33,137 nt of DNA from Zoogloea sp. (GTDB lineage: Bacteria > Pseudomonadota > Gammaproteobacteria > Burkholderiales > Rhodocyclaceae): positions 1 through 33,137 of the forward strand of contig JAEUNU010000115.1 of the NCBI GenBank assembly GCA_016789125.1, in the 5' to 3' direction. Within the stretch, counting starts at the first letter, position 1. Each line of letters opens with the position of its first letter. Both the position numbers and the translations under genes were made by a program. This document shows positions 144 to 29,178 of this stretch, piece after piece. The notes under the pieces are model-generated. The model saw only the letters and a list, made by a program, of their open reading frames with translations. It searched no databases and was not told where the DNA came from.

Positions 144-3100
144 TCATGGCCCGTAGGCGGCAAACCAGCTTGCCGCATGGTTCTCGAGGATGAAGCCGTC
201 GTGAACCCAGCGCTGTAGGGCCAGCCCGGCTTCGCGCAGAGCCTGGGGTTCGGCGAGCTGCTCGCGGATCGCCTTGATCCATTTTTCCGGTTCGTTGGGC
301 AGCCGGGTCACCGGCGCGTTCTGGTAGGGATGGATGTCGGTGCAGATCACCGGCCAGCCCATCGCGCCGTATTCGAGGAGGCGCAGATTGCTTTTTGCCT
401 CATTGAAGGCGTGCACCTCGAGGGGGGCGATGGCGAGGTCGAGGTCAAGGCGGGCCAGCGCCTTGGGGTAGGCGGTGAAGTCCAGCTCGAAGCCGTGGGA
501 TTCGTGCACGAAGGGCTTGAGTGGCTCCGGACACATGCCCATGAAGATCCAGTCGACCTCGTTGGCCAGGGCTTCGACCACCGGGTAGATGAGTTCCAGG
601 TCGCCCAGGTGCTGCTGGGCGCCGGCCCAGCCGACGCGGGGCTTCTTGCGGGGGAACCGCAGTGGAGCCACGTCGCCCCACAGGGACCACTCGAGGCAGT
701 TGGGCATGACCCGCACATCGTCGATCATGTCGGTGCACAGGTCGGCCAGGGGGCGGGTGCTGACGACGAGGCGGTCGGCCAGGCTCAGGCTGCGGCGCAG
801 CCGCGGGCGGGCGTCGCGGGGGCGCCGTTTGAAGGATGGATTCTTTTCGGGCAGCGCGGTGACCAGGTCGTCCATCGTGATGATGCGTCGCACGTGGGGC
901 AGGAAGCGGGCATAGCTCTCGAGGGCGTCGGTCTGGGGGTCGTCCACGGGCTGGTGCATGATGATCGCGTCGGGCGCGGCGCGGGCCAGTTCGACGGGGG
1001 TGAGTATGCGCACCGAGAAGGCCACCGGCGGCTCGCAGATCATCGTCTGGGCGAGGCCGGCCTTGGCGACAGCCCTCAGCGGGGCGCGCAGCCGGTACTC
1101 GCCGGCTCCGCCGGTGAGCGGGACGCCGAGGATGCGCGGCCGGTCGTGGAAGTTCGGGTCCCAGTCGATGGGGGCTACGTGCTCGACCTTGTAGGGCTCG
1201 ACGAGGCTCAGGTTGCGGTTGTAGGCCGGGTCGTGGGCCAGACGCGGTAGCCATTGCTCGAGGAGCTGGTCGTTGGCGTTGCGACTCTCGAGGATGAAGC
1301 GGAGCATGCCTTCCGGCTTGCGCTGGCTGGCGTGCATCGACACGCCGTTGAAGTGGATCAGTGTCGAGTAAGGTGTCCATACGATGCGGCTGCCGGCCTC
1401 GCCGGTGCGCAGGCACAGGTCGAGGGCGCCGTGGATCAGCGGATAGCGCGCGGCGTCCATTCCGCCGAGGCGGTCGAACAGCGATTTCCGGACCAACAGT
1501 GCGGAGCCGCTGACGGCGCTGACCTCCTGGTCGCAGAGGGCGCGGTCCATGTAGCAGGGCTCTGTGATCCCGGTGGTGTTGTTCCATGGGCTGCCGGCGC
1601 TGCCGCCGAGGCCGAGCACCCAGCCGGTATGCTGGACCTTGGCGGTCTCGGGATAGGTGAGGCGGGGCGCGACGATGCCGACCTCGCTGCGTTGGGCGAT
1701 CCCCATCAGGCGATCCAGCCATTCCTCCTGCACCACGTAGGTGTCGTTGTCGAGGAACAGCAGGTAATCGCCTTGCGCCACGGCGGCGCCGGTGTTGGCG
1801 CCGGCCGACCAGTTGAATTCGTCGGGTCGGGCGACGACCCGCGCGCGGCCCACCCACGGCGCGTCTGTCTCGAGGGTGGCGAGGAAGGCGAGGGTGTCGG
1901 GGTCGGTGCTGCCGTTGTCCACCACGATGATCTCGTAGTTGGGGTAGCGGGTGCGGGCGTGGATGCCGTCGAGCAGCGGGCGGAGGTATTCCTCCCGGTC
2001 GCGGGTCTGGATGACGATGCTGACGAGGGGAGCGTCGGGCCAGCGGTAGAGGACGCGCCGGACGCCGTCGGAGGGGCCGTCCAGGATGTCGGCCGAGAGG
2101 CCGCGCCGCGCGAGGTGATCGGCGAGGGCCGACTTTTCGGCCTCCGCGGCGACGGGCCGCGGGCGGCCTGCCGGGCGGTGGGCCAGCATCTGGCTGATGT
2201 GGCCGATGGCGGCGTCGCCGGCCTGGTCGATGACGCGCAGGGCGAGGTCGTAGTTGTGGGCGCCGGCATGGGCGCCGTAGCGCCCGGCGGACAGGAAGCT
2301 GTCCTTGGCGACCAGGGTGAAGCTGCCGAAATAGGCCTGGGCCCGCAGCAGGTCGAGGTTGAAGTCGGGCTTGAAGCGGGGCTGTACGTAGCCTGCCTCG
2401 GCGCCTCCAGCGGTGTCGAGGCTGTCCTCGTCGGGGTAGATGAGCTGCCAGCCGGGCTGGAGGTTGATGTAGTCGGCGATTACCTGCAGTGCATGGGGCT
2501 CGAGGGTGAGCCCCGGCTCGATGCGGGCGAGCCAGCTGCCCGGTGAGTTGGCTGCCATCTCGTCGATCACGTAGTCGATGTGGGCGGCGTCGCGCAGGGC
2601 CAGCCACTGCAGCTGGGGCGTGTCGGCGATGCCCTCGGGGGTCGGCAGGGCGGTGACGACGGTGAGCAGCCACTCGGGGTAGAGCTGGGCAGCGAGGCTG
2701 TCGAGGGTGTCGGCGAGCAGGCTCTCCTCGCCGGGCTGGAGGGCCAGCAGCAGGTGGGTGCCGGGGCGGCGATCCCATTTGAGCACCATGCGCTCGGCGA
2801 GGAGCTGGCCGTCGATCTCCTGGAGGGTCTGGCGGGAGCGCCAGATTTCGTAGAGAGCGTCGTCGGGCGTGGCGTCGGCCTTGCCCCGGCTTTGGGGCAA
2901 TGATGTGATCTGGCGCCTGTCCGGCGTGTTGGGGCTGGTCGCGGAGGGAGCGGGGGCCTGGCGCACCAGGGCGAGCACGGCGCGAGCTTCGTCGATGAAG
3001 CGTGCCTTCTCCGTGTGGATGGCCGGGAGCAGGCGGGCATTGTTGGCGCTGGCCGCGTCGGGGTCGGTTAGCAGCTGCAGGATGCGTTCGGCGACGCTGT

Positions 3101-3947
3101 CCAGGTGCCAGGGGAACACACGGTCTTCGGGGGCCAGCGTGTAGTCTTCGGGAGTGCTGCCGGCCCCGGCATCTGCGACGATCACTGCGCAGCCGAGCAG
3201 CGCGGCTTCGCGGGCGAGGCGGTCCTTGCCGGGGAAGTTGCCGAGGTCGACGAACACCCGGGCGCTGCGCAGGGTGTCGAGCACCTCGTTACGGCTCATC
3301 TTGACGATGCGCTTGATCTGCACGTCTGGCCGGGCGGCGGTGAGGCGTGCCTCGAGGGCGTCGAGGTCGACCACCACCTTTATCCCGGCATTGAGGGCGA
3401 CGCACGGCGGGCGGCTTTCCTGCGGGGTGCCGCCCGCGAAGCGCTCAGGTGTGTAGTCCGACAGGTGGCCGGCGTGCTTCAGCCCGAGGGCTTCGAGCAT
3501 GCGCAGGGCGTAGGCGCTCTGGGTGGCGTGGAAGACGTTTTCCCGGCGCAGGTGGTTGAGGTTGATCCGTGCGAGGGAGGCGAAGGCGTTGTCGACGCTC
3601 AGCCACCACAGGATGATGCGGGCCTGGCTGAAGTGGGCTGCCAGGTCGGCCAGCACCTCCGGAAGCACGACGATGCTGTCGGGAGTGTTGGGAATCTCCC
3701 CGGCGATGCGCAGCCGGTAGTGGGCGTATTCCTCGATCTCCATCTTGCGGGTGCCGAAGCTGATCGTGGTGCTGGCACCGATCTCGGCGTCGGGTGTCTC
3801 GCGCAGCAGGGCCACCTGGCCTTTGTCGAAGAAGACCACGAAGGTTTCGCTGTCGCCGCTGCCATGCAGCGCGTCGGACAATTGCAGCAGAGCCTCTGGC
3901 CCGCCGGTGCGGACGCCGTGGGGCAGCAGGATGTAGGTCTGGCTCAT
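144..3947 (-). CDS. multi-domain glycosyltransferase (GT4-like / GT2 / GT2 / GT4-like)
   Basis: This 1267-residue protein carries several glycosyltransferase folds. Residues about 1-330 are GT4-like (starts ILLPHGVRTGGPEALLQLS; ends with a C-lobe segment around REAALLGCAVIVAD). Residues about 390-620 form a divergent GT2 domain with YPDEDSLD near 502. Residues about 638-900 form a canonical GT2 domain (VSIVIQTRDR, VVDNGSTD, and the DXD-like LDNDTY near 730). Residues about 935-1267 form a second GT4-like domain (VGWAGAQQHLGDLE near 1104; NLRLLEYGAMGWPVI near 1190). Such large fusions extend O-antigen or other surface glycans at the cytoplasmic membrane; no transmembrane segment is obvious. 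It is the last gene of the glycan operon, its ATG overlaps the glf stop by 4 bp, and its own stop lies about 20 bp from the IS4-like transposase stop. Donor and acceptor sugars cannot be read from sequence. Confidence 0.88.
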   Translation of the reverse strand: MSQTYILLPHGVRTGGPEALLQLSDALHGSGDSETFVVFFDKGQVALLRETPDAEIGASTTISFGTRKMEIEEYAHYRLRIAGEIPNTPDSIVVLPEVLADLAAHFSQARIILWWLSVDNAFASLARINLNHLRRENVFHATQSAYALRMLEALGLKHAGHLSDYTPERFAGGTPQESRPPCVALNAGIKVVVDLDALEARLTAARPDVQIKRIVKMSRNEVLDTLRSARVFVDLGNFPGKDRLAREAALLGCAVIVADAGAGSTPEDYTLAPEDRVFPWHLDSVAERILQLLTDPDAASANNARLLPAIHTEKARFIDEARAVLALVRQAPAPSATSPNTPDRRQITSLPQSRGKADATPDDALYEIWRSRQTLQEIDGQLLAERMVLKWDRRPGTHLLLALQPGEESLLADTLDSLAAQLYPEWLLTVVTALPTPEGIADTPQLQWLALRDAAHIDYVIDEMAANSPGSWLARIEPGLTLEPHALQVIADYINLQPGWQLIYPDEDSLDTAGGAEAGYVQPRFKPDFNLDLLRAQAYFGSFTLVAKDSFLSAGRYGAHAGAHNYDLALRVIDQAGDAAIGHISQMLAHRPAGRPRPVAAEAEKSALADHLARRGLSADILDGPSDGVRRVLYRWPDAPLVSIVIQTRDREEYLRPLLDGIHARTRYPNYEIIVVDNGSTDPDTLAFLATLETDAPWVGRARVVARPDEFNWSAGANTGAAVAQGDYLLFLDNDTYVVQEEWLDRLMGIAQRSEVGIVAPRLTYPETAKVQHTGWVLGLGGSAGSPWNNTTGITEPCYMDRALCDQEVSAVSGSALLVRKSLFDRLGGMDAARYPLIHGALDLCLRTGEAGSRIVWTPYSTLIHFNGVSMHASQRKPEGMLRFILESRNANDQLLEQWLPRLAHDPAYNRNLSLVEPYKVEHVAPIDWDPNFHDRPRILGVPLTGGAGEYRLRAPLRAVAKAGLAQTMICEPPVAFSVRILTPVELARAAPDAIIMHQPVDDPQTDALESYARFLPHVRRIITMDDLVTALPEKNPSFKRRPRDARPRLRRSLSLADRLVVSTRPLADLCTDMIDDVRVMPNCLEWSLWGDVAPLRFPRKKPRVGWAGAQQHLGDLELIYPVVEALANEVDWIFMGMCPEPLKPFVHESHGFELDFTAYPKALARLDLDLAIAPLEVHAFNEAKSNLRLLEYGAMGWPVICTDIHPYQNAPVTRLPNEPEKWIKAIREQLAEPQALREAGLALQRWVHDGFILENHAASWFAAYGP

Positions 3948-5068
3948 GTTTCGTGTCCTTGTCCGGTGAAGCGCTGGATGAGGTGGCCGGCGGTGGCGAG
4001 GGCGGCGCCAACGGCCTGGTCCATGTTGTAGTAGCGGTATTCCGCCAGGCGCCCGACGAAGCTCACGTCGTCACGGGCGTCGGCCATCTCCCGGTAGCGC
4101 CGGTACAGGGCCTCGTTGGCGGGGCGGGGCACCGGGTAGTAGGGCTCGCCTTCCGCCTGGGGGTATTCGCGCACGATGGAGGTGCCGGCTGCCTGCTGGC
4201 CGGTGAGGTGCTTGAATTCGGTGATGCGGGTGTAGTCGTGGGTATTGGGGTAGTTGACGGTGCCGACGGGCTGGTATTGCCGGGTGCCGGCCAGGTGTTC
4301 GTGCTCGAAGCGCAGACTGCGATAGGGCAGCGGGCCGTGGCAGTAGTCGAAGAAGGCGTCGATCGGGCCGGTGTAAACCACGTGCCGGGCGGGGTGGAGG
4401 CTGCGCCCGGCGAGGTAGTCGACGCCCAGTTCGACGCAGATCAGTGGGTGGTCGAGCATGCGCCGGAACATCTCGGTGTAGCCCGCGGCGGGCATGGCCT
4501 GGTGGGTGTCGGTGAAGTAGCGGTCGTCGTCGTTGCTGCGGGTGGGGATGCGCGCGGCCACGCCGGCGGCGAGTTCGGAGAGGTCCAGCCCCCATTGCTT
4601 GCGGGTGTAGCCGCGGAAGAACTTCTCGCACAGGTCGTGGCCGACCGAGCCGAGCACCACCTCCTCGCTGGTCCGCGGGTGCTCGACGGGTACACGCACC
4701 GACTCGAGGTGGGCCGCCACGCCGGCTTCGTCGAGGTCAAGTCCGTAGAGGCGGTTGATGGTGGTCCGGTTGATCGGGATCGGGAGCAACTGGCCGTCCA
4801 CCTCGGCCAGCACCCGGTGCTCGTAGGGGCGCCAGTCGGTGAAGCGGGAGAGGTGGCGGAAGATGCGCCCGGCGTTGGTGTGGAAGATGTGGGGGCCGTA
4901 GCGGTGCACCTGCAGGCCGTGGGCGTCGGTCTCGTCGAAGGCGTTGCCGCCGATGTGGGGGCGGCGCTCGATCAGCTTGACGGGGATGCCGTGGTCGGCC
5001 AGCTCGCGGGCGACGGTAGCCCCGGCAAAGCCGGCCCCGACGACGAGGATGGGGAGGGTGTGGCTCAT
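3944..5068 (-). CDS. glf: UDP-galactopyranose mutase
   Basis: The enzyme interconverts UDP-galactopyranose and UDP-galactofuranose using reduced FAD, supplying Galf for surface glycans. The 374-residue length is normal for bacterial Glf. The N-terminus has the FAD-binding Rossmann motif VVGAGFAGATVARELADHG followed by an acidic residue ending beta-2 (LIERRPHIGGNAFD). Further family signatures are YGPHIFHT, the NRTTINRLYG segment, the FRGYTRKQWG segment, and the C-terminal FVGRLAEYRYYNMDQAVGAAL that closes the FAD site. The gene overlaps the GT2 gene upstream and the large glycosyltransferase downstream by 4 bp each (ATGA junctions), so translational coupling is likely. Its presence implies that the glycan made by this operon contains galactofuranose. 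Confidence 0.95.
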   Translation of the reverse strand: MSHTLPILVVGAGFAGATVARELADHGIPVKLIERRPHIGGNAFDETDAHGLQVHRYGPHIFHTNAGRIFRHLSRFTDWRPYEHRVLAEVDGQLLPIPINRTTINRLYGLDLDEAGVAAHLESVRVPVEHPRTSEEVVLGSVGHDLCEKFFRGYTRKQWGLDLSELAAGVAARIPTRSNDDDRYFTDTHQAMPAAGYTEMFRRMLDHPLICVELGVDYLAGRSLHPARHVVYTGPIDAFFDYCHGPLPYRSLRFEHEHLAGTRQYQPVGTVNYPNTHDYTRITEFKHLTGQQAAGTSIVREYPQAEGEPYYPVPRPANEALYRRYREMADARDDVSFVGRLAEYRYYNMDQAVGAALATAGHLIQRFTGQGHET

Positions 5069-6294
5069 GCTTCAGTGCTCCCGGCGGATCGGCTGCCCGG
5101 AAGCAGGTGTTCGGTGAGGTCTTCAATGCTGATGATGTCTTCGTCACCGACCACGCTGGCCAACGCCGGCCGATCTGCCTCGGCGCAGAGGAAGAGGGCC
5201 CGGCCACGCCAGGTGCCGGCTTCGTCTGTCGAATCGATTGTGGTTACGTGCCGCTTCATCACCGCGTGGATGCGTGCCAACTCGGCCTGACGGTAGAGCA
5301 CGAGCTCCTCGAGCCAGCTGCGTCCTGCGAGAATGCGTCTTGCCAGCTCAACGACGGCAAGGTGGTCCAGGCCGGCAATGCGGTCGTCGGGCCTCACGAG
5401 CTGGGCGCGCAGACGTGCGGCGAGCTCCAGCGCGTCGGCGTAACGGCCGGCGTTGAACAGGTTGTGAAAGCATTCCCCGAGCCGCGTGAGGTAGATCTTG
5501 CGGGCCGCCTCGGTCAGACGCAGCCAGGTGTTCTCGTTTACGTTCAGGTCGGGCTGCAGGAGGGCCCGGTCGACGAGAAGGTCGAGGCCGCCGCGTACGC
5601 GCTCGAGGTAGGCGGGCTGCATCACCAGCGTGGAGCCGAGGTTGACGCGTTCAGGCTCGCCTGCGTGGGTCACGATGAAGTGATAGAACGCCCGCCGCGC
5701 AAAGATGATCTCGCCGTGTGTGAGCAGGTGCGCCAGCTTGTTGAACTCGTAGAAACTGTATTCGCCGGGAATCAGCGCACGGCGGATTGCATCGCGGCGA
5801 TAGAGGCCGAGCTCGGGCCAGTGGCTGGTGCTGGCGAGGTAGTCCAGCAGCCCTGAGAAATCACCCCGGCCGATCTGGTGCACCTCCGGCACATGGTTGT
5901 AGATGAAGACTTCGTTGTTTGCCCGGTTGATATAATGGATCGGAGCGTACAGTGCGCTTGCCCACGGGCACTGGCGCATTGCGTCCAGGTAGTCCTCTAC
6001 GACCGCTGCATCGAGCTCGTCGTCGTCGCCGAGGCCGATGACGAAGTCGTGGCGGGCTTGGGCGAGGACTGCGAAGAGCTGTTCGCCGCCGCTGGTGTGG
6101 CGGGTCTGGCGGACAAGCCGCAGTTCGGGCCGGCCGGCGAAGGGGGCAAGGGCTTCGTCGTAGCCGTCGTCGGGCTGGTTGATGCAGACGACGATCTCGA
6201 GCGGGCTGCGCCAGCTCTGGGCGAACAGACTGTTGAGCGTTCTGGCGAGGAGTGCCGGGCGCTGGTAGCTCGGGATGGCGATGGTCAGGGACAT
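5065..6294 (-). CDS. glycosyltransferase family 2
   Basis: This 409-residue protein starts with the GT2 (GT-A fold) signature MSLTIAIPSYQRPALLARTLNSLF. It carries a nucleotide-sugar/metal-binding acidic cluster, IGLGDDDELDA, near residue 90. Residues about 1-230 form the catalytic domain; the remaining roughly 180 residues are mostly helical and I do not recognise them. No transmembrane segment is apparent. The start ATG overlaps the end of the transketolase C-terminal subunit gene by 10 bp, with a purine-rich GAAGGGG upstream as possible ribosome site, and the stop overlaps glf by 4 bp. It probably adds one residue of the repeat unit, perhaps the unusual sugar made by the upstream genes; this is inference from context only. 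Confidence 0.85.
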   Translation of the reverse strand: MSLTIAIPSYQRPALLARTLNSLFAQSWRSPLEIVVCINQPDDGYDEALAPFAGRPELRLVRQTRHTSGGEQLFAVLAQARHDFVIGLGDDDELDAAVVEDYLDAMRQCPWASALYAPIHYINRANNEVFIYNHVPEVHQIGRGDFSGLLDYLASTSHWPELGLYRRDAIRRALIPGEYSFYEFNKLAHLLTHGEIIFARRAFYHFIVTHAGEPERVNLGSTLVMQPAYLERVRGGLDLLVDRALLQPDLNVNENTWLRLTEAARKIYLTRLGECFHNLFNAGRYADALELAARLRAQLVRPDDRIAGLDHLAVVELARRILAGRSWLEELVLYRQAELARIHAVMKRHVTTIDSTDEAGTWRGRALFLCAEADRPALASVVGDEDIISIEDLTEHLLPGSRSAGSTEA

Positions 6295-7163
6295 GTCGGG
6301 GCCCCTTCGGGCAGGGAGGGTGATAGGGGGTGCGCGGGCGGCGGCGTCAGGGCTTCGATGGTTACCTGCGTGTCGATCCCGGCGGCGTTCTTCGCCTCAA
6401 GGAGCCAGGAGCCGAAGCCGCAGTCTGCGTAGTGGTCCTCCACGCTGACGATTGCCTGCCATGCGGCGAGCTGGTCAAGCTGCCGGGCCTTGTGGCGTGC
6501 TCCCCACAGGGGGAGTGAGTGAACCGCATGGCCAGCAAGGAGCGGATCTGCCTCGACGCGGCGCAGCGTGGCGGCAAGCGTGGTGCCGGTGCACAGGAAG
6601 CTGCGTCCGCTGCCGTCACCCTCGCGTAGCGTGAGCCATTCTCCAGGGCTGACCCTCGGTGGGGCTGCGTGCAGCGAGGGCTCTCCGGCCTTGCCTAGGC
6701 GGAGGTAGGCCGGGCCGGGGGAGTCGGCGAGGTAACGCATGCAGGCCCTCACTTCCTGCGGGTCACCCGGGGCTGCGATGAGCATGTTGGGCAGCATCCG
6801 CACCAGCCCGTAGTCCTGCACCGCGTGGTGGGAGTACCCCAGGTTGCCGTAAGCAAGACCGCCTCCGACGGCTACGATGGTCACCGGTAGCACATGGTGG
6901 TCGACGTCATTGCGCAATTGTTCGGCGCACCGGAAGGTCGGAAAGTTGGCGATTGAATAGGCGAAGACCCGGCAGCCTTCGGAGGCAAGTCCTGCAGCCA
7001 GGCCGAGCATGTTCTGCTCGGCGACGCCGGCATTGAAGAAGCGGTCGGGGAAACGTTCGGCGAAGGGCTCGATGACCGACCAGCCGAGATCTCCCACCAG
7101 GAGGACGACCTTGTCGTCGGATTCCGCCTGGGCGACGAGTTCGGCGATGAAGGCGTCACGCAT
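6285..7163 (-). CDS. transketolase-like protein, C-terminal (pyrimidine-binding) subunit
   Basis: The protein corresponds to the pyrimidine-binding and C-terminal domains of transketolase, as in split transketolases and DXS-like enzymes. Signatures are VVLLVGDLGWSV, then FNAGVAEQNMLGLAAGLA with the conserved catalytic Glu that activates thiamine diphosphate, and GYSHHAVQDYGLVRMLPNM. I place the start at the ATG ending at 7163 (292 residues) because GGAGG lies 6 nt upstream; an in-frame ATG at 7184 would add seven residues. The gene overlaps the N-terminal subunit gene by 8 bp, so the two should form one heteromeric ThDP enzyme. In this operon it may transfer a two-carbon ketol unit to a keto-sugar nucleotide rather than act in the pentose phosphate pathway; that role is inferred. 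Confidence 0.87.
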   Translation of the reverse strand: MRDAFIAELVAQAESDDKVVLLVGDLGWSVIEPFAERFPDRFFNAGVAEQNMLGLAAGLASEGCRVFAYSIANFPTFRCAEQLRNDVDHHVLPVTIVAVGGGLAYGNLGYSHHAVQDYGLVRMLPNMLIAAPGDPQEVRACMRYLADSPGPAYLRLGKAGEPSLHAAPPRVSPGEWLTLREGDGSGRSFLCTGTTLAATLRRVEADPLLAGHAVHSLPLWGARHKARQLDQLAAWQAIVSVEDHYADCGFGSWLLEAKNAAGIDTQVTIEALTPPPAHPLSPSLPEGAPTCP

Positions 7164-7983
7164 GGTGGGCCTCCAGTTCGGCAAGGGCCTGGGTGAGCTG
7201 GGCGGCGTCAGGGCTGCGATAGTGCCAGGCGACCTGGTCTTCCATGAACGAGACGCCCTTGCCTTTTGTGGTGTGGGCGATCAGGGCGCTGGGCTGGCCC
7301 GGTTGGGCCTCGCCGAGGGCTGCCTGCAGCGCCTCGTGATTGTGGCCGTCCACCTCGCGGACAGCCCAGCCGAAGGCCCGCAGCTTGTCGGCGAGGGGTT
7401 CGAGGCCGAGAGTGCGAGTGATGCTGGTGAGGCTCTGAAGCTTGTTGTAGTCGATGATCGCGTGAAGCCGGTCGAGTTTGTGGTGGGCGGCGAACATGAA
7501 GGCTTCCCAGTTGCTGCCTTCGTCCAGTTCGCCGTCGCTCATCAGCACAAAGACCCGGGAGGGCGCGCGCACTCGGCGCAAAGCGAGGGCCTTGCCGGCA
7601 CCGAAGGGCAGGCCGTGGCCGAGGGAGCCAGTGGAGAACTCTGCGCCCGGGACACTGTGGCTGATGTGGTTGAGGAGCGGGCTGTCGGGGGCGCCGTAGC
7701 TGTCGAGCCAGGCGCGTGGGAAGAATCCGGTCTCGGCCAGCGCAGCATAGACTGCGACGCAGGCGTGGCCCTTGCTCAGGATGAAACGGTCGCGCCGAGC
7801 GGCCCGGGGATTCGCCGGGTCAAGCTTCAGCACTGCGCCGTACAGCACCGCGACGATGTCGGCGATGGAGAGGGCGCTGCCGATGTGCGACGCGCGTGCC
7901 TGCGTCACCATCCGGAGGGCGTGCCGGCGGATCTGCAGCGCGAGCGTGCGGGTCAGCTGAGGAGAGCCAGGATCTGGTCGCAT
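7156..7983 (-). CDS. transketolase-like protein, N-terminal (ThDP diphosphate-binding) subunit
   Basis: This 275-residue protein matches the N-terminal third of transketolase. It has RASHIGSALSIADIVAVLY, the ILSKGHACVAVYAAL segment, TGSLGHGLPFGAGKAL, and a ThDP/Mg-binding motif SDGELDEGSNWEA followed about 20 residues later by IIDYNKLQ. The first motif residue is Ser instead of the usual Gly, a common variation in split forms. Its partner is the next gene, which overlaps it by 8 bp. The start overlaps the stop of the GNAT-aminotransferase gene by 31 bp. Split transketolase pairs inside glycan clusters usually belong to sugar modification; the expected substrate here is the CDP-4-keto-dideoxyhexose from RfbH, by inference. 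Confidence 0.88.
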   Translation of the reverse strand: MRPDPGSPQLTRTLALQIRRHALRMVTQARASHIGSALSIADIVAVLYGAVLKLDPANPRAARRDRFILSKGHACVAVYAALAETGFFPRAWLDSYGAPDSPLLNHISHSVPGAEFSTGSLGHGLPFGAGKALALRRVRAPSRVFVLMSDGELDEGSNWEAFMFAAHHKLDRLHAIIDYNKLQSLTSITRTLGLEPLADKLRAFGWAVREVDGHNHEALQAALGEAQPGQPSALIAHTTKGKGVSFMEDQVAWHYRSPDAAQLTQALAELEAHHA

Positions 7984-9707
7984 GCGTGATCCACTTCGTT
8001 GCGGGTCAGGCAGACCCCGGAAGGCAGGTTGAGAGCGGTCTCGCCGATGGCCTTGGCGACGGGCCCCACGGCCTGGCGCCTTGGCCAGATCGGGTATTGG
8101 CTGATGGCCGGGAAGACGGCTCGTGTGTCGACATGGCGGGCCTTCAGCCTGGCCATCAGCGTGTCGCGGTCGAGGCGTGCGCCAGGGCCGAGGCGCAGGC
8201 TGTTCATCCAGTAGGCACCGTAGCTGTCTGGCGGTTCGGCGTAGAGGCTGGCGTCGGCCAGCGCGCCGAGCCGCGCCTTGTACCAGCCGTAGATGCGACG
8301 TTTTGCGGCGACCATCTCCTCGATGCGTTCGACCTGGGCCAGGGCCAGGGCGGCCTGTACGTTGGACATCTTGTACTTCAGCCCATCCGCGTCGATCCAG
8401 AAGGTCCCGCTGGCCCGGCCCTGGTCCCAGATCTTGCGTGCCTTTGCATAGAGTTCGGGGTCGTCGGTGAGCAGCACACCCCCCTCGCCGGACACGGCGA
8501 GCTTGGCGCCCTGGAAGCTGAAGGCCGAGAAATCGCCGAAACTGCCCGTCATCTGCCCGGCATGGCGGGCTCCCAGCGAGGGGGCAGCATCTTCGATGAC
8601 CCGCAGGCCGTGGCGCCGGGCGACGGCCATCAGTGCCGTCATGTCGCAGGGGAAACCGTACAGGTGCACCGGGATGATGGCGCGGGTGCGTGGCGTGATC
8701 CAGGCCTCCAGACCTTGCGGGTCGAGTAGCCAGGTTGCCGGGTCGACATCGGCGAAGACCGGAGTGGCGCCGGCGTAGCGCACGGCGTTGGCGGTAGCCA
8801 CCCAGGTGGTCTCGGGGACGATGACCTCGTCCCCCGGGCCTATGCCCAGGGCGGCGAGGGCAATGTGCAGCGCACCGGTGCAGGACGAAGTGGCTAGCGC
8901 GTAGCGCACGCCGACTGTTTCGGCGATGGCGTGCTCGAAGCGGTCGAGATAGTGGCTCCAGTTGCTGTTCCAGCCGGTGCGTACCGCATCACCCACATAG
9001 ACCTGCTCGCGCAGGCCGATCGACGGTCCTGCGGTGAGGATCATGCGCTGGGGGTCATGGGGGGCGCAGCGTCCTTCCATTGTGATGTATGCGTCTGCGG
9101 CGGGCTGGCTGCCGGCTGGAACGAGCTGGCTCTCGTTGCCGTCATGGTGCCAGCGGAGGGGGCTGCGCTCGCAGTCCTGATAGCCGAGGGCGTGGTAAAG
9201 CGCGATGGCCCTGGTGTTGGATTCGAGGACGCGCAAGTAGAAGCCGTCGGTGAACAACACGGTGCGGGCCCACTCGGTGAGGGCGTGCATCGCCTGGGTC
9301 ATGACACCGCGCTCGCCTTCTGGCTTGCCGCGCAGGACGTTGTCGATCTCGAGCCAGCCCGGGCGTGCGAGACCATTGGCCAGGCCGAGATGTCCGACCA
9401 GGCGGCCTGCTTTGTCGAAGACGAGGAACAGGATGCGCAGCGGATTGCCGAGCACGGCTGTCTCAAGCCAGCGGCGGGTGCGCTCGGGGCTGATCGGGAA
9501 ACGGGTGGGATAGGCCGCGACGTGGGCCTCACGCCATTCCCCGAGCTGGCGGATGAGTTCGACGTCGTCGAGATGAAGGCGACTGAGCGGGACAAGGCAG
9601 CCGCCACCGCTGAGAGCGAGGTTGCGTTGCCAGAGTTCGGAGACGCTGGTGGCCGCTTTGGCGAAGGCTAGTTCGCGGCGGATGACTTCGTCGTGGTCGC
9701 AGGTCAT
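7953..9707 (-). CDS. GNAT N-acyltransferase / DegT-DnrJ-EryC1-StrS sugar aminotransferase fusion
   Basis: This 584-residue protein has two domains. Residues about 15-205 resemble a GNAT acetyltransferase of the RimJ/RimL type (PLSRLHLDDVELIRQLGEW; GHLGLANG; ending LRVLESNTRAIALYHALGYQDCERSPL). Residues about 221-584 are a PLP-dependent fold-type I sugar aminotransferase (ILTAGPSIGLREQVYVGDAV; ATSSCTGALHIALAALGIGPGDEVIVP; VIEDAAPSLGA; SFQGAKLAVSGEGG). The catalytic lysine is Lys402, so this is a true aminotransferase, unlike RfbH. The chain could transaminate a keto-sugar nucleotide and then N-acylate the amine. Start: ATG at 9707 with GAGAG about 7 nt upstream, 9 bp after the rfbH stop. A Met near residue 209 (MEGRCAPHD) could be an internal start for the aminotransferase alone. 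The substrate is unknown. Confidence 0.87.
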   Translation of the reverse strand: MTCDHDEVIRRELAFAKAATSVSELWQRNLALSGGGCLVPLSRLHLDDVELIRQLGEWREAHVAAYPTRFPISPERTRRWLETAVLGNPLRILFLVFDKAGRLVGHLGLANGLARPGWLEIDNVLRGKPEGERGVMTQAMHALTEWARTVLFTDGFYLRVLESNTRAIALYHALGYQDCERSPLRWHHDGNESQLVPAGSQPAADAYITMEGRCAPHDPQRMILTAGPSIGLREQVYVGDAVRTGWNSNWSHYLDRFEHAIAETVGVRYALATSSCTGALHIALAALGIGPGDEVIVPETTWVATANAVRYAGATPVFADVDPATWLLDPQGLEAWITPRTRAIIPVHLYGFPCDMTALMAVARRHGLRVIEDAAPSLGARHAGQMTGSFGDFSAFSFQGAKLAVSGEGGVLLTDDPELYAKARKIWDQGRASGTFWIDADGLKYKMSNVQAALALAQVERIEEMVAAKRRIYGWYKARLGALADASLYAEPPDSYGAYWMNSLRLGPGARLDRDTLMARLKARHVDTRAVFPAISQYPIWPRRQAVGPVAKAIGETALNLPSGVCLTRNEVDHACDQILALLS

Positions 9708-9716
9708 GGGGGGCTC

Positions 9717-11084
9717 TCAGTCAAAATGGACGCCGAGAAAGCGGCGGATGGTCGAGGCGCAGTAATCCAGCTGCGCCTCCGTGAGCCCCGGCCACACGCC
9801 GATCCAGAAGGTGTCGCGCATGATGCGGTCGGCCACCGGCAGTTCGCCGACGACGCGGAAATTGCGGCCGGCCATCGACGGCTGGCGCACCAGGTTGCCG
9901 GCGAACAGCAGGCGGGTGCCGATCTTGTGCTGGTCGAGGTACTGGAGCAGGTCGACCCGGTTGACACCGGCCTCGGGGCACAGCGTGATCGGATAGCCGA
10001 ACCAGGACGGGTCGCTGCCGGGCGTGGCTTCGGGCAGCACCAGGCAGTCCCGGGCGTCGGCCAGCGCCGCGCTGAGGTGCTCGAAGTTGCGCTTGCGGGC
10101 GGCGATGAAGCCATCCAGCCGGTCGAGCTGGGCGAGGCCGCAGGCGGCCTGCATGTCGGTGATCTTGAGGTTGTAGCCGATGTGGCTGTAGGTGTATTTG
10201 TGGTCGTAACCCTGCGGCAGGCTGCCCAGCTGCCAGCCGAAGCGCTTGCCGCAGGTGTTGTCGCAGCCGGGCTTGCACCAGCAGTCGCGGCCCCAGTCGC
10301 GGAAGGATTCGGCGATCTGGCGCAGCGTGGGGTCGCTGGTGAGCACGGCGCCGCCTTCACCCATGGTGATGTGGTGGGCGGGGTAGAAGGACAGCGTGGC
10401 GAGGTGGCCGAAGGTGCCCACCTTGCGGCCTTTCCAGGTGGAGCCGAGGGCGTCGCAACAGTCCTCTACCAGCCACAGGCCGTGGGCCTCGGCGAAGGCG
10501 CAGACGGCGTCGAGGTCGAAGGGATTGCCGAGGGTGTGGGCGATCATGATCGCCTTGGTGCGCGGCGAGAGGGCGGCCTCAAGCAGGGCTACGTCGATGT
10601 TGTAGCCGGGCAACGTCACATCGACAAAGACCGGTACGGCGCCGTTCTGGATGATCGGATTGACGGTGGTCGGGAAGCCGGCGGCGACGGTGATGACCTC
10701 GTCGCCCGGCTGGATGGCCCGCTCGCCAAGCCTGGGTGAGGTGAGCGTCGAGAAGGCCACCAGGTTGGCCGACGAGCCTGAGTTGACGGTGAGCGCATGG
10801 GCGGTGCCGACGAAGGCCGCCAGGCGCGCCTCGAAGGCCTCGTTGAAGCGGCCGGTGGTGAGCCAGGCGTCGAGGGCGGCGTCGATCATGGCGTCCTTTT
10901 CGGGGTCGCCGACGACCTTGCCGGAGGGCGGCACCGGGTCGATCCCGGGTTGCCAGGCTTGGGGCGCGGCGGCGGGCCGGGCTGGGCGGACGATGACTTC
11001 GAGCGCCTGGCCGGCGAACTCGGGGAGGTCGAGCTGCAGGTGGCCGTCGGCGTCGGGGCGCAGGGTTTTGCGGATGAGGCTCAT
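9717..11084 (-). CDS. rfbH: CDP-4-keto-6-deoxyglucose 3-dehydrase (RfbH/E1)
   Basis: RfbH (also DdhC, AscC or E1) is a PMP-dependent, iron-sulfur enzyme that removes the C3 hydroxyl of CDP-4-keto-6-deoxyglucose on the route to 3,6-dideoxyhexoses. It has the DegT fold, but the usual PLP lysine is replaced by His237 in [14 protein letters not shown], a hallmark of E1. Four clustered cysteines in [16 protein letters not shown] (near residue 265) fit the [2Fe-2S] ligands. The start is ATG at 11084, which forms an ATGA overlap with the rfbG stop; the frame is open further upstream but antisense-like in composition. The product is 455 residues, close to the family's roughly 437, with a short extra N-terminal segment. 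It normally needs a reductase partner (RfbI/E3), which is not in the window. Confidence 0.93.
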
Positions 11085-12160
11085 GGGTGGCGTGCGAAGG
11101 CGGTGATTTCGTCCAGGGTGTAGCTGCGCATGTCGGCCCCGCCGCGCCAGGCCTGGTGCCAGGCGAGTGTTCTGGCGATGGCCGTTTCGGCGTCCCAGTG
11201 GGGCCGCCAGCCCAGGCGGCTGTGGGCCTTGCTGCAGTCGAGCTTGAGGGTGTGGGCCTCGTGGGGGTGGGCGTCGGTGCTGGCGCTCCAGCGGGCGTCG
11301 GGGCCCCAGCCCCGGGCGAGGCGCTCGACGACCCAGGCGACGCTGCGTGCGTCGCGGGCGTCGGGGCCGAAGTTCCAGGCGTCGGCCCAGCTGACCTGCG
11401 GGGTGTCGATCTCCACGGCGAGCCGCCGGGCCAGCGCGAGGTAGCCCGCCAGGGGCTCGAGCACATGCTGCCAGGGGCGGATGGCGCCGGGGTTGCGCAG
11501 CAGCACCGGCTCGCCGGCGGCGAAGGCGGCCAGAACGTCGGGCACCAGCCGGGTGGCGGTCCAGTCGCCGCCGCCGATGACGTTGCCGGCGCGGGCGGTG
11601 GCCAGCGCGACGCCCTGGCCGGCCAGGAAGGCGTGCCGGTAGGAGGCGGCGACCAGCTCGGTGCAGCCCTTGCTGGCGGAGTAGGGGTCGTGGCCGCCGA
11701 GGGCGTCGGTCTCGCGGTAGCCCCACACCCACTCGTGGTTCTCGTAGCACTTGTCGCTGCTGACCACGACGACCGCCCGCACCCCCGGCGTGTGGCGCAC
11801 GGCTTCGAGCAGATTGACGGTGCCCATCACGTTGGTGGCGAAGGTGGCGGCGGGTTCGGCGTAGGAGAGCGGCACCAGCGGCTGGGCCGCCAGGTGCAGG
11901 ACGATCTCGGGGCTGGCGCTGGCGAGGGCTTCGGCGAGCCTTGTGTAATCCCGAACGTCGCCGAGCACGGAGTGCATTCCGTCCGCCACGCCGGCCTCGT
12001 CGAACAGGGCTGGCACGGTGGAGGGGGGCAGCGCGTAGCCGAAGACCTCGGCGCCGAGGTGCTGCAGCCACAGGCACAGCCAGCCGCCCTTGAAGCCGGT
12101 GTGGCCGGTGACGAAGACCCGCCGGCCGCTCCAGAAGTCGGCGCTCACCAGCTTTTCCAT
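11081..12160 (-). CDS. rfbG: CDP-glucose 4,6-dehydratase
   Basis: RfbG converts CDP-D-glucose to CDP-4-keto-6-deoxy-D-glucose, the second step of CDP-dideoxyhexose synthesis. The 359-residue length is standard. It is an extended SDR protein with the NAD-binding motif [52 protein letters not shown] and the catalytic DPYSASKGC (Tyr and Lys of YxxxK). GGAG about 7 nt upstream supports the ATG at 12160. It overlaps rfbF by 16 bp and rfbH by 4 bp, consistent with stepwise coupling of the three CDP-sugar genes. Confidence 0.96.
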
Positions 12161-12915
12161 GGGGCGGCTCCGCGGTTCCAGAGGTCTTCGAGGACGAGCT
12201 TGTCGCGCAGGGTGTCCATCGGGCGCCAGAAGCCGGTGTGCTGGAAGGCGCTCAGTTGTTCGTTCTCGATCAGCCGGGCGAGGACGGGGCCCTCGAAGAC
12301 GGTCTGGTCGCCGTCAATGAGATCCAGCACCGACGGCGACAGCACGAAGAAGCCGCCATTGATGAAGCCGCCGTCGCCGAGGGGTTTTTCGACGAAGGCG
12401 CTGACCGTGCTGCCGTTCAGTTCGAGCGCACCGAATCGTCCGGGCGGCTGCACGGCGGCGACGGTGGCGAGCTTGCCGTGGCTGCGGTGGAAGGCGATCT
12501 CGGCGCTGATGTCGATGTCGGCGAGGCCGTCGCCGTAGGTGAAGCAGAAGGCGTCGTCGTCCTGCAGGTAGTTGCGCACCCGCCCTAGGCGGCCACCGGT
12601 CTGGGTGGTGTCGCCGGTGTCCACCAGGGTGACGCGCCAGGGCTCGGCATGGCGTTCGTGGATCTCCATGCTGTTCTGGCTCATGTCGAAGGTGACGTCG
12701 GACATATGCAGGAAATAGTTGGCGAAGTACTCCTTGATCACATAGCCCATGTAGCCGCAGCAGATCACGAAGTCGTGGATGCCGTGGCTGGAATAGACCT
12801 TCATGATGTGCCAGAGGATGGGGCGGCCGCCGATGCCGATCATCGGCTTGGGCCGATTGACGGTTTCTTCGCTGATGCGGGTGCCCAGGCCACCCGCGAG
12901 GATCACGGCTTTCAT
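12145..12915 (-). CDS. rfbF: glucose-1-phosphate cytidylyltransferase
   Basis: RfbF makes CDP-D-glucose from CTP and glucose-1-phosphate, the first committed step of the pathway. The N-terminus [25 protein letters not shown] is the nucleotidyltransferase signature, followed by [17 protein letters not shown] and [14 protein letters not shown] with the metal-binding Asp. The 256-residue length matches the family. Two ATG codons are adjacent (12918 and 12915). GGAG at 12921-12924 sits 5 nt from the second and only 2 nt from the first, so I chose 12915. It is the first gene of the minus-strand operon; the 140-bp gap to the secreted-protein gene is the likely promoter region, but I see no convincing -35/-10 pair. 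Confidence 0.95.
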
Positions 12916-12920
12916 CATCG

Positions 12921-13055: not shown

Positions 13056-13634
13056 TCAGCGCAGGTCGGCCTGGAGGTTGGGGGGCGTGATGCCGCAGGC
13101 GAGGTAGTCGCGGTCGGCCATGACGGGCTTGAACTCGCATGTGGGGGCGCTGGAGGCCGGGTTGCCGGTGAGGCGGGTGAAGCGCGGGTCGGCGGGGCGG
13201 GGGGCGCGATTCAGCGGCTGCGGCGGGGCCGCGTCGGGCGAGGGTTGGCCAGGTGGGGGCTGGAAGGCGAAGGACTGTGGGCCGGTGTCGTCGAGTGAGC
13301 TGCGGCCGCCGCTCCGGGCCGCCCGCTCGGCGCGACGGCGTTCCAGGATCTCGGCTTCCCGGTGGCGTTGTTCTTCCAGGTAGTGGGAGCGGAGCGAGGC
13401 GCGGGCGACGTCGCCCAGCAGGTCGCCGCCACTGTAGCGGGATTCGCCCACGGCCCGGCTGTAGGTGGCTGCGGGGGCGAGGTGGCTGTGCGGGGCCTCT
13501 GGTGCGACGTGGGGCGTCGAGACGCTGCGCTGCATGCCCACAGGCCGCCCGCCACCGAACCGACGCGCGTCGGCGGGGGCGCTGGCCACGAGGGCGATGG
13601 CGGCAAGGAGCAGGGCGGGGCGGACTGTGCGCAT
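13056..13634 (-). CDS. small secreted protein of unknown function
   Basis: I do not recognise this 192-residue protein. The start at ATG 13634 gives a clear Sec signal peptide: positive MRTVR, hydrophobic PALLLAAIALVASAP, and a probable cleavage after ADA near residue 23. The frame stays open upstream, but only as a shadow of the HAD gene. The mature part is low complexity: a Gly/Arg-rich start, a charged helical stretch (about residues 80-110, SHYLEEQRHREAEILERRRAERAAR), a Pro-rich segment, and a C-terminal part with two cysteines (PTCEFKPV and YLACGI) that could form a disulfide in the periplasm. It is transcribed in the same direction as the HAD gene upstream and the rfb operon downstream, with about 110-140 bp on each side. 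Confidence 0.72.
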   Translation of the reverse strand: MRTVRPALLLAAIALVASAPADARRFGGGRPVGMQRSVSTPHVAPEAPHSHLAPAATYSRAVGESRYSGGDLLGDVARASLRSHYLEEQRHREAEILERRRAERAARSGGRSSLDDTGPQSFAFQPPPGQPSPDAAPPQPLNRAPRPADPRFTRLTGNPASSAPTCEFKPVMADRDYLACGITPPNLQADLR

Positions 13635-13741
13635 GATGGGTATCGGCCCGGTGCCAGGGGCGTGGCACGCAGGACGGAAGGATCTCGGAACCCCCGATTC
13701 TACTGAAGGCTCGTGCGTGATGCCAACGTGCTGTGGCGTGC

Positions 13742-22170: not shown

Positions 22171-22237
22171 CTTTCGGGGGCTGACAAAGCCGGGGTTCGT
22201 CCCTCAAGCTTTGTGGCGGCGGGCCGTTCACGCCGGG

Positions 22238-29154: not shown

Positions 29155-29178
29155 GGCTGGTTTCAGATAGGAATTGTG

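Follow-up and report, generated by a model that had tools for sequence, protein, structure and literature searches.

A split transketolase clade linked to CDP-deoxysugar genes and a putative branched-sugar operon in Zoogloea

Known carboligases and the operon of the window

In the yersiniose A pathway, RfbF, RfbG and RfbH act together with YerE, an acetolactate-synthase-like ThDP flavoenzyme that adds an acetyl unit from pyruvate. The branching job in such clusters has so far been attributed to YerE, which is unrelated to the enzyme considered here. Split-gene transketolases have been proposed to put a hydroxyacetyl group on keto sugars in miharamycin and amipurimycin biosynthesis, and a 2025 review describes the 13 split-gene transketolase sequences of its survey as all from Streptomycetes and none as characterised in vitro (PMC12247030 section 2.3). 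For Rif15a/Rif15b, another split transketolase, activity on a ketone acceptor was shown in vitro (PMC6002545). AviB1/AviB2-type pairs (avilamycin, paulomycin) are two-gene, alpha-keto-acid dehydrogenase-like enzymes proposed to form a C2 branch on sugar C4 from pyruvate (PMC4753412). We found no paper on a system like the present one in the open-access library searched, where keto-sugar branching by split transketolases is proposed only in Streptomycetes (PMC12247030).

The window analysed here is the full 33,137-nt contig JAEUNU010000115.1 of Zoogloea sp. (GCA_016789125.1). It carries one minus-strand operon with RfbF, RfbG, RfbH, a GNAT-aminotransferase fusion, the transketolase halves TktN and TktC, and glycosyltransferase genes downstream. 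The genes of the CDP-3,6-dideoxysugar precursor pathway all exceed the curated cut-offs: RfbF, glucose-1-phosphate cytidylyltransferase (12145..12918; TIGR02623, 458.6 bits, cut-off 300.25), RfbG, CDP-glucose 4,6-dehydratase (11081..12160; TIGR02622, 478.4 bits, cut-off 278.45), and RfbH, CDP-6-deoxy-4-hexulose 3-dehydrase (9717..11084; NF011936, 722.8 bits, cut-off 423). RfbH residues 22-454 of 455 align with the solved CDP-4-keto-6-deoxyglucose-3-dehydrases 3bcx and 3bb8 (E 3e-192), whose four-cysteine stretch and His-His motif are also found in the window protein. The first-pass annotation had named these three genes and two overlapping transketolase halves, and the profiles bear it out, PF00456 and PF02779 for the halves included.

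A 584-aa fusion gene (7953..9707) sits between RfbH and TktN. Its GNAT acyltransferase domain (about residues 1-205) matches PF13302, and its DegT-family, fold type I aminotransferase domain (about residues 206-584) matches PF01041 with 350 bits. Downstream, a GT2-family glycosyltransferase gene (5065..6294; PF00535) overlaps TktC and is followed by UDP-galactopyranose mutase (3944..5068; TIGR00031, 357 bits, cut-off 303.75) and a large multidomain glycosyltransferase (144..3947; PF00535, with an additional Glyco_trans_1_4 match under its cut-off). All three are syntenic in locus L005, where the mutase is 75% identical. The large glycosyltransferase is the last operon gene on the contig and, since the window is the whole contig, the operon is truncated just past it. 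The earlier annotation spoke of an IS, across which a ketoreductase gene would count against its proposal. This IS has no basis in the scanned ORFs: a Pfam scan of 20 window ORFs, a set that leaves out four likely genes (22211-25651, ~25640-26553, 29176-29850 and 30880-33135), found no transposase.

The split transketolase and its residues

The Transketolase_N and Transket_pyr domains lie on two separate chains, TktN (7156..7983; ThDP-binding half; PF00456, E 1.4e-35) and TktC (6285..7163; pyrimidine-binding half; PF02779, 95 bits, E 5.9e-27). The ORF of TktC was listed from a TTG at 7184. In nearly all relatives (alignment A2), however, the protein begins at the residue equivalent to window Met8 (ATG 7161-7163), so the listed start is probably too early and the ATG at 7163 is preferred; with this start the two genes overlap by 8 bases. 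TktN scores 123.3 bits with PF00456 against 24.6 bits with PF00676, the E1_dh family of the AviB-type alpha subunits, and its closest solved chain is the split transketolase 6yak (E 2e-90). The best PDB match of TktC, by profile and by fold, is 6yaj (AlphaFold model pLDDT 84; Foldseek E 1.5e-22), and TktC also matches DXP synthases in both ways. The split-chain transketolase of Carboxydothermus hydrogenoformans (6yaj/6yak) is thus the nearest solved relative of both halves, with about 31% identity to TktC by fold alignment; we know of no polysaccharide cluster containing it. No TPP_enzyme_N, M or C domain was found in TktN or TktC, whereas the YerE family has all three in one chain of about 570 residues.

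Residues were compared with E. coli TktA (sequence from NC_000913, whose numbering is used) over the window and 35 core loci, a core locus being one with both halves present and TktC at least 58% identical. The positions of His26, His66, His100, Gly114, Asp155, Asn185, His261, Asp381, Glu411, Phe437 and His473 are identical in the window and in 35/35 core loci. All of these but Asp381 and Phe437 we take to be ThDP- or ketol-binding catalytic residues. Ser385, His461, Asp469 and Arg520, presumably the sugar-phosphate contacts, are changed in the core loci to Tyr/Phe/Trp, Gly, Leu/Met and Lys, the window having Trp, Gly, Leu and Lys. His461 and Asp469 are both lost in the window and all 35 core members, and the 19 pairs retaining both are all outside the clade. 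Phe434 and Tyr440 are replaced by Ile and Gln in 35/35 core loci, in a part of the alignment that is uncertain. The transketolase catalytic residues are retained and several sugar-phosphate contacts lost; ketol transfer is the predicted activity. Sugar-phosphate donors may still be used, because Arg358 is kept and Arg520 is replaced by Lys.

Gene neighbourhoods and the exchange of enzymes

The window and the 35 core loci form a single TktNC clade (SH-aLRT 100), with 62-74% identity in TktN and 58-67% in TktC, in alpha-, beta- and gammaproteobacteria and a Sediminibacterium bin. The co-occurrence check proposed in the first-pass annotation was carried out: RfbF/G/H genes adjoin TktNC in 33/35 core loci, RfbF in 31 of them, RfbG in 31, RfbH in 26 and all three in 24. 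In the two others (L011, L015) the contigs end upstream of TktN, and in the two loci without RfbF and RfbG (L022, L023) they end 2.2 kb upstream of RfbH or inside it. RfbH is missing from the stretch covered in 7 of the 33; in one of these (L012), and in the divergent L208, a C-methyltransferase stands in its place. The most constant neighbours, RfbF and RfbG, make a CDP-4-keto-6-deoxysugar, which is therefore the likely acceptor of the transketolase. Three loci with TktN of 62-66% fall outside the core by its rule (L036, where the contig stops at TktN; L037, with TktC of 41%; L041, where no TktC was found), and no RfbF/G/H genes were found in 11-17 kb at any of them. TktN matches of E <= 1e-60 (44-56% identity) occur in 24 further genomes of the order, and only 3 of these have RfbH within 10 kb. 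The rfb linkage is a trait of the TktNC clade and not of split transketolases in general. In addition, a 635-aa SDR-TktN fusion lies on a Paenibacillus plasmid between a C-methyltransferase and TktC.

The RfbI-type partner of RfbH had been described as absent. No RfbI-like gene was found on the window contig at 34% identity or above, but elsewhere in the genome, contig C198 encodes a ferredoxin reductase that shares 41% identity (E 2e-60) with the RfbI-like protein of a sister cluster (L020). Since, moreover, just 7/35 core loci have an RfbI-like gene within the fetched stretch, its absence from the cluster is not diagnostic.

Of 45 loci anchored on RfbH, 5 have the transketolase, 16 an IlvI/YerE-like ThDP enzyme, 24 neither and none both; the zero is weak alone, about two double loci being expected. 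An IlvI-like gene was found in 0/41 transketolase-selected loci (35 core and 6 divergent), and the window contig likewise lacks an IlvI/YerE-like protein. TPP_enzyme_N/M/C domains were found in the IlvI/YerE-like proteins of four control loci (L175, L193, L172, L206), and that of L175 scores 603 bits to 5ahk, the next chain scoring 268. The SDR type c2 occurs in 2/5 transketolase loci, 4/16 IlvI-like loci and none of the 24 that have neither enzyme (Fisher test, one-sided, p 0.007, from six positive loci that are not independent of each other). Of the four c2 proteins from YerE-like loci, three group with a transketolase-side c2 (fork 95/84), in a tree with only 1/15 inner branches starred. 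SDR c0 at 34% identity or more is present in 0/5, 3/16 and 1/24 of the same classes. The best reading of these distributions would be that the transketolase takes YerE's place.

The finishing gene varies. In 32/35 core loci the RfbF/G/H-Tkt group contains or adjoins an SDR (class c0, c2 or c9). Class c0 is broad, with a match of only 27-29% to its representative in 7/14 core members. The GNAT-aminotransferase is found in the remaining 3 (L005, L029, L038) and in the window, and the tree requires three changes between the two. The first-pass annotation saw no finishing enzyme. Indeed no SDR of these classes, the 4-ketoreductases sought for abequose, paratose, tyvelose or ascarylose, was found on the window contig, nor one matching them in the syntenic L005; the aminotransferase/acyltransferase within the operon was overlooked. 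As the contig ends downstream, an SDR may still lie beyond that end. Lys402 of the aminotransferase, in FQGAK at the PLP-lysine position, aligns with a lysine of 3dr7 and is identical in 4/4 fusions. The genes and their order, the clade-wide linkage, the catalytic residues, and the Tkt/YerE-like and SDR/aminotransferase exchanges can be read directly from the sequences.

Predicted pathway and its alternatives

We propose that CDP-4-keto-3,6-dideoxyglucose would be formed by RfbF, RfbG and RfbH together with a reductase whose gene lies elsewhere. With thiamine diphosphate as carrier, TktN/TktC would move a two-carbon ketol (hydroxyacetyl) unit from a ketose donor to the C4 ketone, which would become a tertiary alcohol in CDP-3,6-dideoxy-4-C-(hydroxyacetyl)-hexose. 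In most relatives the next step would be reduction of the side-chain ketone by the SDR, leaving a 1,2-dihydroxyethyl branch. In the window cluster the fused aminotransferase would aminate this ketone and the GNAT domain would N-acylate the product. The resulting 4-C-(1-acylamino-2-hydroxyethyl)-3,6-dideoxyhexose would be used by the downstream glycosyltransferases beside galactofuranose. We consider it quite probable that the CDP-sugar is attacked at its C4 ketone by the transketolase and probable that the unit is hydroxyacetyl; that the operon as a whole makes a branched nucleotide sugar for a surface polysaccharide by this route we regard as fairly probable, and amination of the new side-chain ketone as somewhat probable. 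Every reaction from the transketolase onward, like the donor, the stereochemistry and the acyl group, is a prediction from gene content. We know of no polysaccharide structure from any carrier of the clade, and of no polysaccharide containing a 3,6-dideoxy-4-C-(1-acylamino-2-hydroxyethyl)-hexose.

Among solved structures the aminotransferase domain is nearest to perosamine synthetases (3dr7, 3bn1), which aminate a C4 ketone, and it could thus act at C4 instead of the side chain. The fusion would then turn CDP-4-keto-3,6-dideoxyglucose into a CDP-4-acylamino-3,4,6-trideoxyhexose and the transketolase would make something else for the polysaccharide, such as an unusual ketose; a single overlapping operon allows any role in the same polymer. 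This is unlikely, as the transketolase pair is constant while the finisher alternates between SDR and aminotransferase, and is linked to RfbF/RfbG, with an SDR-TktN fusion in existence. A C4-acting finisher would be expected also without a carboligase, yet c2, which accompanies the transketolase or a YerE-like enzyme, is in none of the 24 RfbH loci with neither. The window aminotransferase also differs from perosamine synthases in its GNAT fusion and in its CDP-sugar operon with a carboligase.

The nature of the transferred unit may also be questioned. DXP synthases use pyruvate, and the match of TktC to them, together with a c2 reductase common to YerE-like loci, which is consistent with similar side chains, would suit a DXS- or AviB-like transfer of acetyl, the branch of YerE. 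We consider this improbable, since the transketolase active-site histidines (positions of His26, 66, 100, 261 and 473) are kept in the window and 35/35 core loci, both halves match split transketolases best, and TktN fits PF00456 far better than E1_dh (123 against 25 bits). Rif15, likewise a split transketolase, turns a ketone into an ester (PMC6002545), and a ketol carbanion adduct might similarly rearrange to an O4 glycolate ester with no carbon branch. The chance of this is minimal: a C4 ester would leave the SDR or aminotransferase without a ketone, and aromatisation, the presumed driving force of the rearrangement in rifamycin, is not available to a sugar. Finally, a pentose-phosphate or catabolic split transketolase may merely be located in a polysaccharide operon, and 45/86 tree rows carry no rfb-linked label, in two cases only through contig ends. 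Neighbouring RfbF/G/H genes in 33/35 loci across three proteobacterial classes and a Sediminibacterium bin, and the loss of both His461 and Asp469 in the window and every core member, with the 19 pairs that keep them all outside the clade, make this very improbable as well.

The predicted hydroxyacetyl branching resembles the yersiniose A pathway in its CDP-sugar precursor genes, in a ThDP carboligase within an RfbH cluster, in the c2 SDR that can follow and in a predicted C2 branch on the C4 ketone. It differs in a carboligase of the transketolase superfamily encoded by two genes, in hydroxyacetyl instead of acetyl, and in the aminotransferase/acyltransferase finisher. The proposed hydroxyacetyl transfer to a keto sugar is shared with the miharamycin and amipurimycin enzymes; these and the 13 Streptomycete enzymes, compared by description, belong to natural-product clusters, whereas TktNC is mostly proteobacterial and tied to CDP-deoxysugars and surface polysaccharide. 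Rif15a/Rif15b shares the overlapping genes, and also the ketone acceptor and ketose-phosphate donor, which are shown in vitro for Rif15 and predicted for TktNC, but its acceptor is rifamycin S and its product an ester (PMC6002545). AviB1/AviB2 shares the two-gene form and the proposed C2 branch at sugar C4 (PMC4753412). The earlier proposal of transketolase-type instead of YerE-type branching gains strong comparative support from the clade-wide RfbF/RfbG linkage, the lack of a Tkt+YerE-like locus, the shared SDR and the SDR-TktN fusion, its chemistry remaining predicted.

The 33 clusters offer a well-defined likely acceptor, CDP-4-keto-6-deoxysugars, which known enzymes can make, and the question of split-transketolase branching is therefore directly testable. 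If the proposal is true, formation of a tertiary alcohol on a nucleotide sugar would be shown for a transketolase for the first time, and biocatalysis would gain a route to hydroxyacetyl tertiary alcohols. The c2-type SDR would become a candidate ketoreductase for the side chain of yersiniose, a reduction step that a 2016 paper calls uncharacterised (PMC4753412). We lean slightly towards the view that a mainly proteobacterial split-transketolase clade has replaced YerE as the CDP-4-keto-6-deoxysugar carboligase, giving hydroxyacetyl-derived C4 branches and, here, an amino-branched octose, which would account for a class of branched bacterial surface sugars that has gone unnoticed.

Operon organization and the split transketolase

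The minus-strand operon of the window encodes, in order, RfbF, RfbG, RfbH, a GNAT-aminotransferase fusion, TktN and TktC (the ThDP-binding and pyrimidine-binding halves of a split transketolase, together the Tkt pair), a GT2 glycosyltransferase, a UDP-galactopyranose mutase and a large glycosyltransferase. The genes are tightly packed: neighbouring genes overlap at 7 of the 8 junctions, by between 4 and 31 bases, and the sole exception is a gap of 9 bases between RfbH and the fusion. RfbF, RfbG and RfbH all score above the curated cut-offs of their equivalog models, and RfbH residues 22–454 align with solved CDP-4-keto-6-deoxyglucose-3-dehydrases, with which they share a four-cysteine stretch and a His-His motif. 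These cut-offs and Pfam confirm the first-pass annotation in its description of RfbF/G/H with two transketolase halves. It had omitted the 584-aa GNAT-aminotransferase fusion between RfbH and TktN, however, and the insertion sequence it placed beside the operon finds no counterpart, since Pfam detected no transposase in any of the 20 window ORFs scanned. Downstream of the operon comes the end of the contig, which has 33,137 bases and is covered in full by the window; the assembly amounts to 3.54 Mb in 307 contigs and is about 81% complete. Upstream of RfbF, an ORF on the minus strand (13056–13640) begins with a signal-peptide-like sequence and matches no Pfam family.

Our proposal is that the Tkt pair, instead of YerE, the acetolactate-synthase-like ThDP carboligase of yersiniose, would transfer a hydroxyacetyl branch from a putative donor to the C4 ketone of CDP-4-keto-3,6-dideoxyglucose. 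The active site was compared with that of E. coli TktA in the window and in 35 core loci, which are relatives drawn from the best 80 of 173. His26, His66, His100, Gly114, Asp155, Asn185, His261, Arg358, Asp381, Glu411, Phe437 and His473 are kept in the window and in 35/35 core loci. Four other positions, which contact the sugar phosphate and the hydroxyl beside the reacting carbonyl, are altered: Ser385 is replaced by Tyr in 32 core loci, Phe in 3 and Trp in the window, Asp469 by Leu in 34 core loci and Met in 1, and His461 and Arg520 by Gly and Lys, respectively, in all 35. Phe434 is changed to Ile and Tyr440 to Gln, at positions where the alignment is uncertain. The changes at 385, 461, 469 and 520 would be compatible with an acceptor other than a phosphate or an α-hydroxyaldehyde. 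His461 and Asp469 are both retained in 19 of 49 other split pairs, and these 19 are the distant lineages of the tree. A separate split-transketolase lineage in Bacteroidota (L050, L051, L056 and related Cytophagia loci) carries Ser-Ser-Leu-Lys at the same four positions, in a seemingly conserved operon without RfbF/G/H.

The AlphaFold model of TktC (pLDDT 84, pTM 0.86) finds its best match in a split-transketolase C-terminal chain, 6yaj (E 1.5e-22), with DXP synthases second. An ordinary pentose-phosphate transketolase is rejected on the residues together with the clade linkage described below, and a pyruvate-dehydrogenase-like pair on Pfam scores.

Linkage of the transketolase clade to RfbF, RfbG and RfbH

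TktN relatives were collected by scanning a species-genome collection with six TktN peptide patterns, a procedure that favours close relatives. The search found 173, the best 80 of these 173 loci were kept, and 35 qualified as core loci by possessing both halves with a TktC identity of at least 58%. The 35 and the window form one clade (SH-aLRT 100), whose hosts, among the best 80 of 173, are alpha-, beta- and gammaproteobacteria, a Magnetococcales bin and a Sediminibacterium bin. RfbF, RfbG and/or RfbH adjoin the Tkt pair in 33 of the 35 (RfbF in 31, RfbG in 31, RfbH in 26, all three in 24; best 80 of 173). The contigs of the two unlinked loci, L011 and L015, stop about 1.3 kb and about 0.5 kb upstream of TktN, and for the linked loci without RfbF and RfbG, L022 and L023, the contig breaks off 2.2 kb upstream of RfbH or within that gene. 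The absence of RfbI, the Fer2/FAD/NAD reductase of class c3, had been taken as a clue; it loses that value, as an RfbI-like gene was found in only 7 of the 35 (stretch examined; best 80 of 173).

The commonest order among the core loci is RfbF-RfbG-RfbH-[X]-TktN-TktC. Among sphingomonads the genes run TktN-TktC-RfbF-RfbG-SDR; RfbH follows farther along in L016 and L034, and none was found in the stretch examined of six other sphingomonad loci. In core locus L012 a C-methyltransferase (PF08421/PF08484) occupies the RfbH position, as it does in the Paenibacillus plasmid locus L208, which is more divergent (TktN 45%, TktC 42%) and lies outside the tree. From the linkage counts and the C-methyltransferase loci, the most constant partners of the Tkt pair appear to supply a CDP-4-keto-6-deoxysugar, which points to the C4 ketone as the probable acceptor, irrespective of processing at C3.

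The core rule dropped three loci with TktN identities of 62–66%, and RfbF/G/H are seen in none of them: L036, whose contig ends at TktN, L037, whose TktC identity is 41%, and L041, where neither TktC nor RfbF/G/H was detected in 16.9 kb. The L041 TktN (9977–10837) is 64% identical to that of the window and has an FkbM-type neighbour. Distant TktN relatives are mostly unlinked, with RfbH within 10 kb in 3 of the 24 other genomes of the order that have a TktN match at E ≤ 1e-60. A plasmid search with TktC returned 86 records, every one below 60% identity, and the neighbourhoods of L208 and L209 were inspected. In L209, on Azospirillum argentinense plasmid AbAZ39_p5, the split transketolase is flanked by B12-binding radical SAM and cobalamin-dependent proteins; the neighbourhood includes transposases and has no rfb genes annotated. 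The TktC proteins of the window and of L005, sisters in the tree, have no C-terminal tail of the type VCGxVGxQ...GGL (window 6285–6345), which is present in the other 18 sequences of the TktC alignment.

Exchange of carboligases and finishing enzymes

A set not selected for transketolase was assembled from all RfbH matches in 369 genomes of the class and 260 of the order, excluding the window, and comprises 45 loci (10 + 35) from 43 genomes. TktN and TktC occur in 5 of them, an IlvI-like ThDP enzyme in 16, both in none and neither in 24; five of the 45 (L188, L190, L196, L205 and L213) are shorter than 8 kb at contig ends and could hide a carboligase. Likewise, an IlvI-like gene occurs in 0 of 41 loci selected by Tkt (35 core, from the best 80 of 173, and 6 divergent), so that no locus with both types of carboligase was found in the sets examined. 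Presence was called at thresholds of our own choosing (identity, for instance, of 45% for c2, 34% for c0 and 22% for IlvI), and the 16 YerE-like assignments rest on 24–33% similarity to E. coli IlvI. All four IlvI-like proteins scanned with Pfam have three TPP_enzyme domains. The one from L175 falls below the acetolactate synthase cut-off (419 vs 538 bits) and scores 603 bits against PDB entry 5ahk, the Pseudomonas protegens YerE, and 268 against the next chain. The distance from RfbH to the IlvI-like gene, measured in 15 of the 16 loci, is under 50 bases in 5 and over 4.5 kb in 4 (L186, L193, L198, L199).

The SDR class c2 is shared between Tkt loci and YerE-like loci. In the RfbH set it is present in 2/5 loci with Tkt, 4/16 with the IlvI-like enzyme and 0/24 with neither; the one-sided Fisher p of 0.007, from six positive loci, is a guide value since the loci are related. 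In the c2 tree, 3 of the 4 proteins from YerE-like loci share a fork (95/84) with the protein that L004 contributes from the Tkt side, and the fourth could not be placed; the tree demands at least 2 partner changes, with 1 of its 15 inner branches starred. On the natural reading, Tkt and YerE are interchangeable at one pathway step. The c2 enzyme would then reduce the ketone of the branch put on by either, making it a candidate side-chain ketoreductase of yersiniose-type sugars. No NCBIfam model matches c2 (L175:5622–6644, L031:4790–5731) at E ≤ 1e-10; the absence of any c2 match at E ≤ 1e-50 from a search of 369 genomes of the class is uninformative.

Two further loci bear split transketolases. 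L149, from the same genus as the window, has the order RfbF-RfbG-RfbH-Tkt-c2, with a divergent Tkt pair (37–38% identical to that of the window) in the same position and a c2 70% identical to that of L031. The RfbH locus L170 has two split pairs separated by about 12 kb, of which just one adjoins RfbF/RfbG and c2.

The finishing gene in or beside the RfbF/G/H-Tkt group of the core loci (best 80 of 173) is an SDR of class c2 in 10, c9 in 8 and c0 in 14, c0 being a broad class in which 7 of the 14 match the representative at only 27–29%; an FkbM methyltransferase accompanies 6 of these 7. The SDR does not in every case adjoin Tkt: it comes after RfbG in c9 loci and 2.3 kb downstream in L019. Core loci L005, L029 and L038 (best 80 of 173), like the window, have a GNAT-aminotransferase fusion instead of an SDR of these three classes. 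L035 carries a second, distant c0-type SDR farther downstream, and L029 a further NAD-dependent epimerase-like gene upstream of RfbF. The SDR and aminotransferase states exchange on the Tkt tree, requiring 3 changes. When 260 genomes of the order were searched for the fusion, the copy in the window was the sole match at E ≤ 1e-100.

Ketoreductase and transaminase offer two different routes from one ketone. The aminotransferase domain, in which the PLP lysine is kept, would convert the ketone of the hydroxyacetyl branch to an amine, which the GNAT domain would then acylate. Side-chain amination is the simplest reading and a reasonably probable one, but the closest solved relatives of the aminotransferase are perosamine synthetases, which act at C4. 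With amination of the side chain, the final sugar would be a branched, acylated amino sugar, presumably destined for a polysaccharide.

The succession of carboligation and reduction gains independent support from L208 on Paenibacillus cellulosilyticus plasmid NZ_CP054609, where the reductase is fused to the carboligase half. The 635-aa protein (L208:7097–9004) consists of an SDR (Pfam Epimerase, residues 19–247) and TktN (residues 383–612), and is preceded by RfbF, RfbG and the C-methyltransferase and followed by TktC. A TylF-type methyltransferase also lies beside it.

Precedent and novelty

Rif15 is a split transketolase encoded by overlapping genes; in vitro it moves a two-carbon keto unit taken from ketoses onto a ketone of rifamycin S, giving an ester (PMC6002545). 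It resembles the proposed system in its overlapping split genes and ketone acceptor, and differs in its ester product. Branching of keto-sugars by transketolases has been proposed for miharamycin and amipurimycin in a 2025 review, which describes a bioinformatic survey that found 13 such transketolases, all split-gene and all from Streptomycetes, none of them characterised in vitro, and assigns branching in LPS to YerE-like enzymes (PMC12247030). In a virome study, "transketolase" and "glucose-1-phosphate cytidylyltransferase" are separate rows of a gene table (PMC3877843). No paper tying a transketolase to RfbF/G/H clusters is apparent in the open-access literature, outside which most subscription journals fall and a prior report is possible. 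As the search found no such link, transketolase-based branching in these clusters is probably novel: it would represent YerE-type branching carried out by another enzyme superfamily, and its branch chemistry is predicted to be new.
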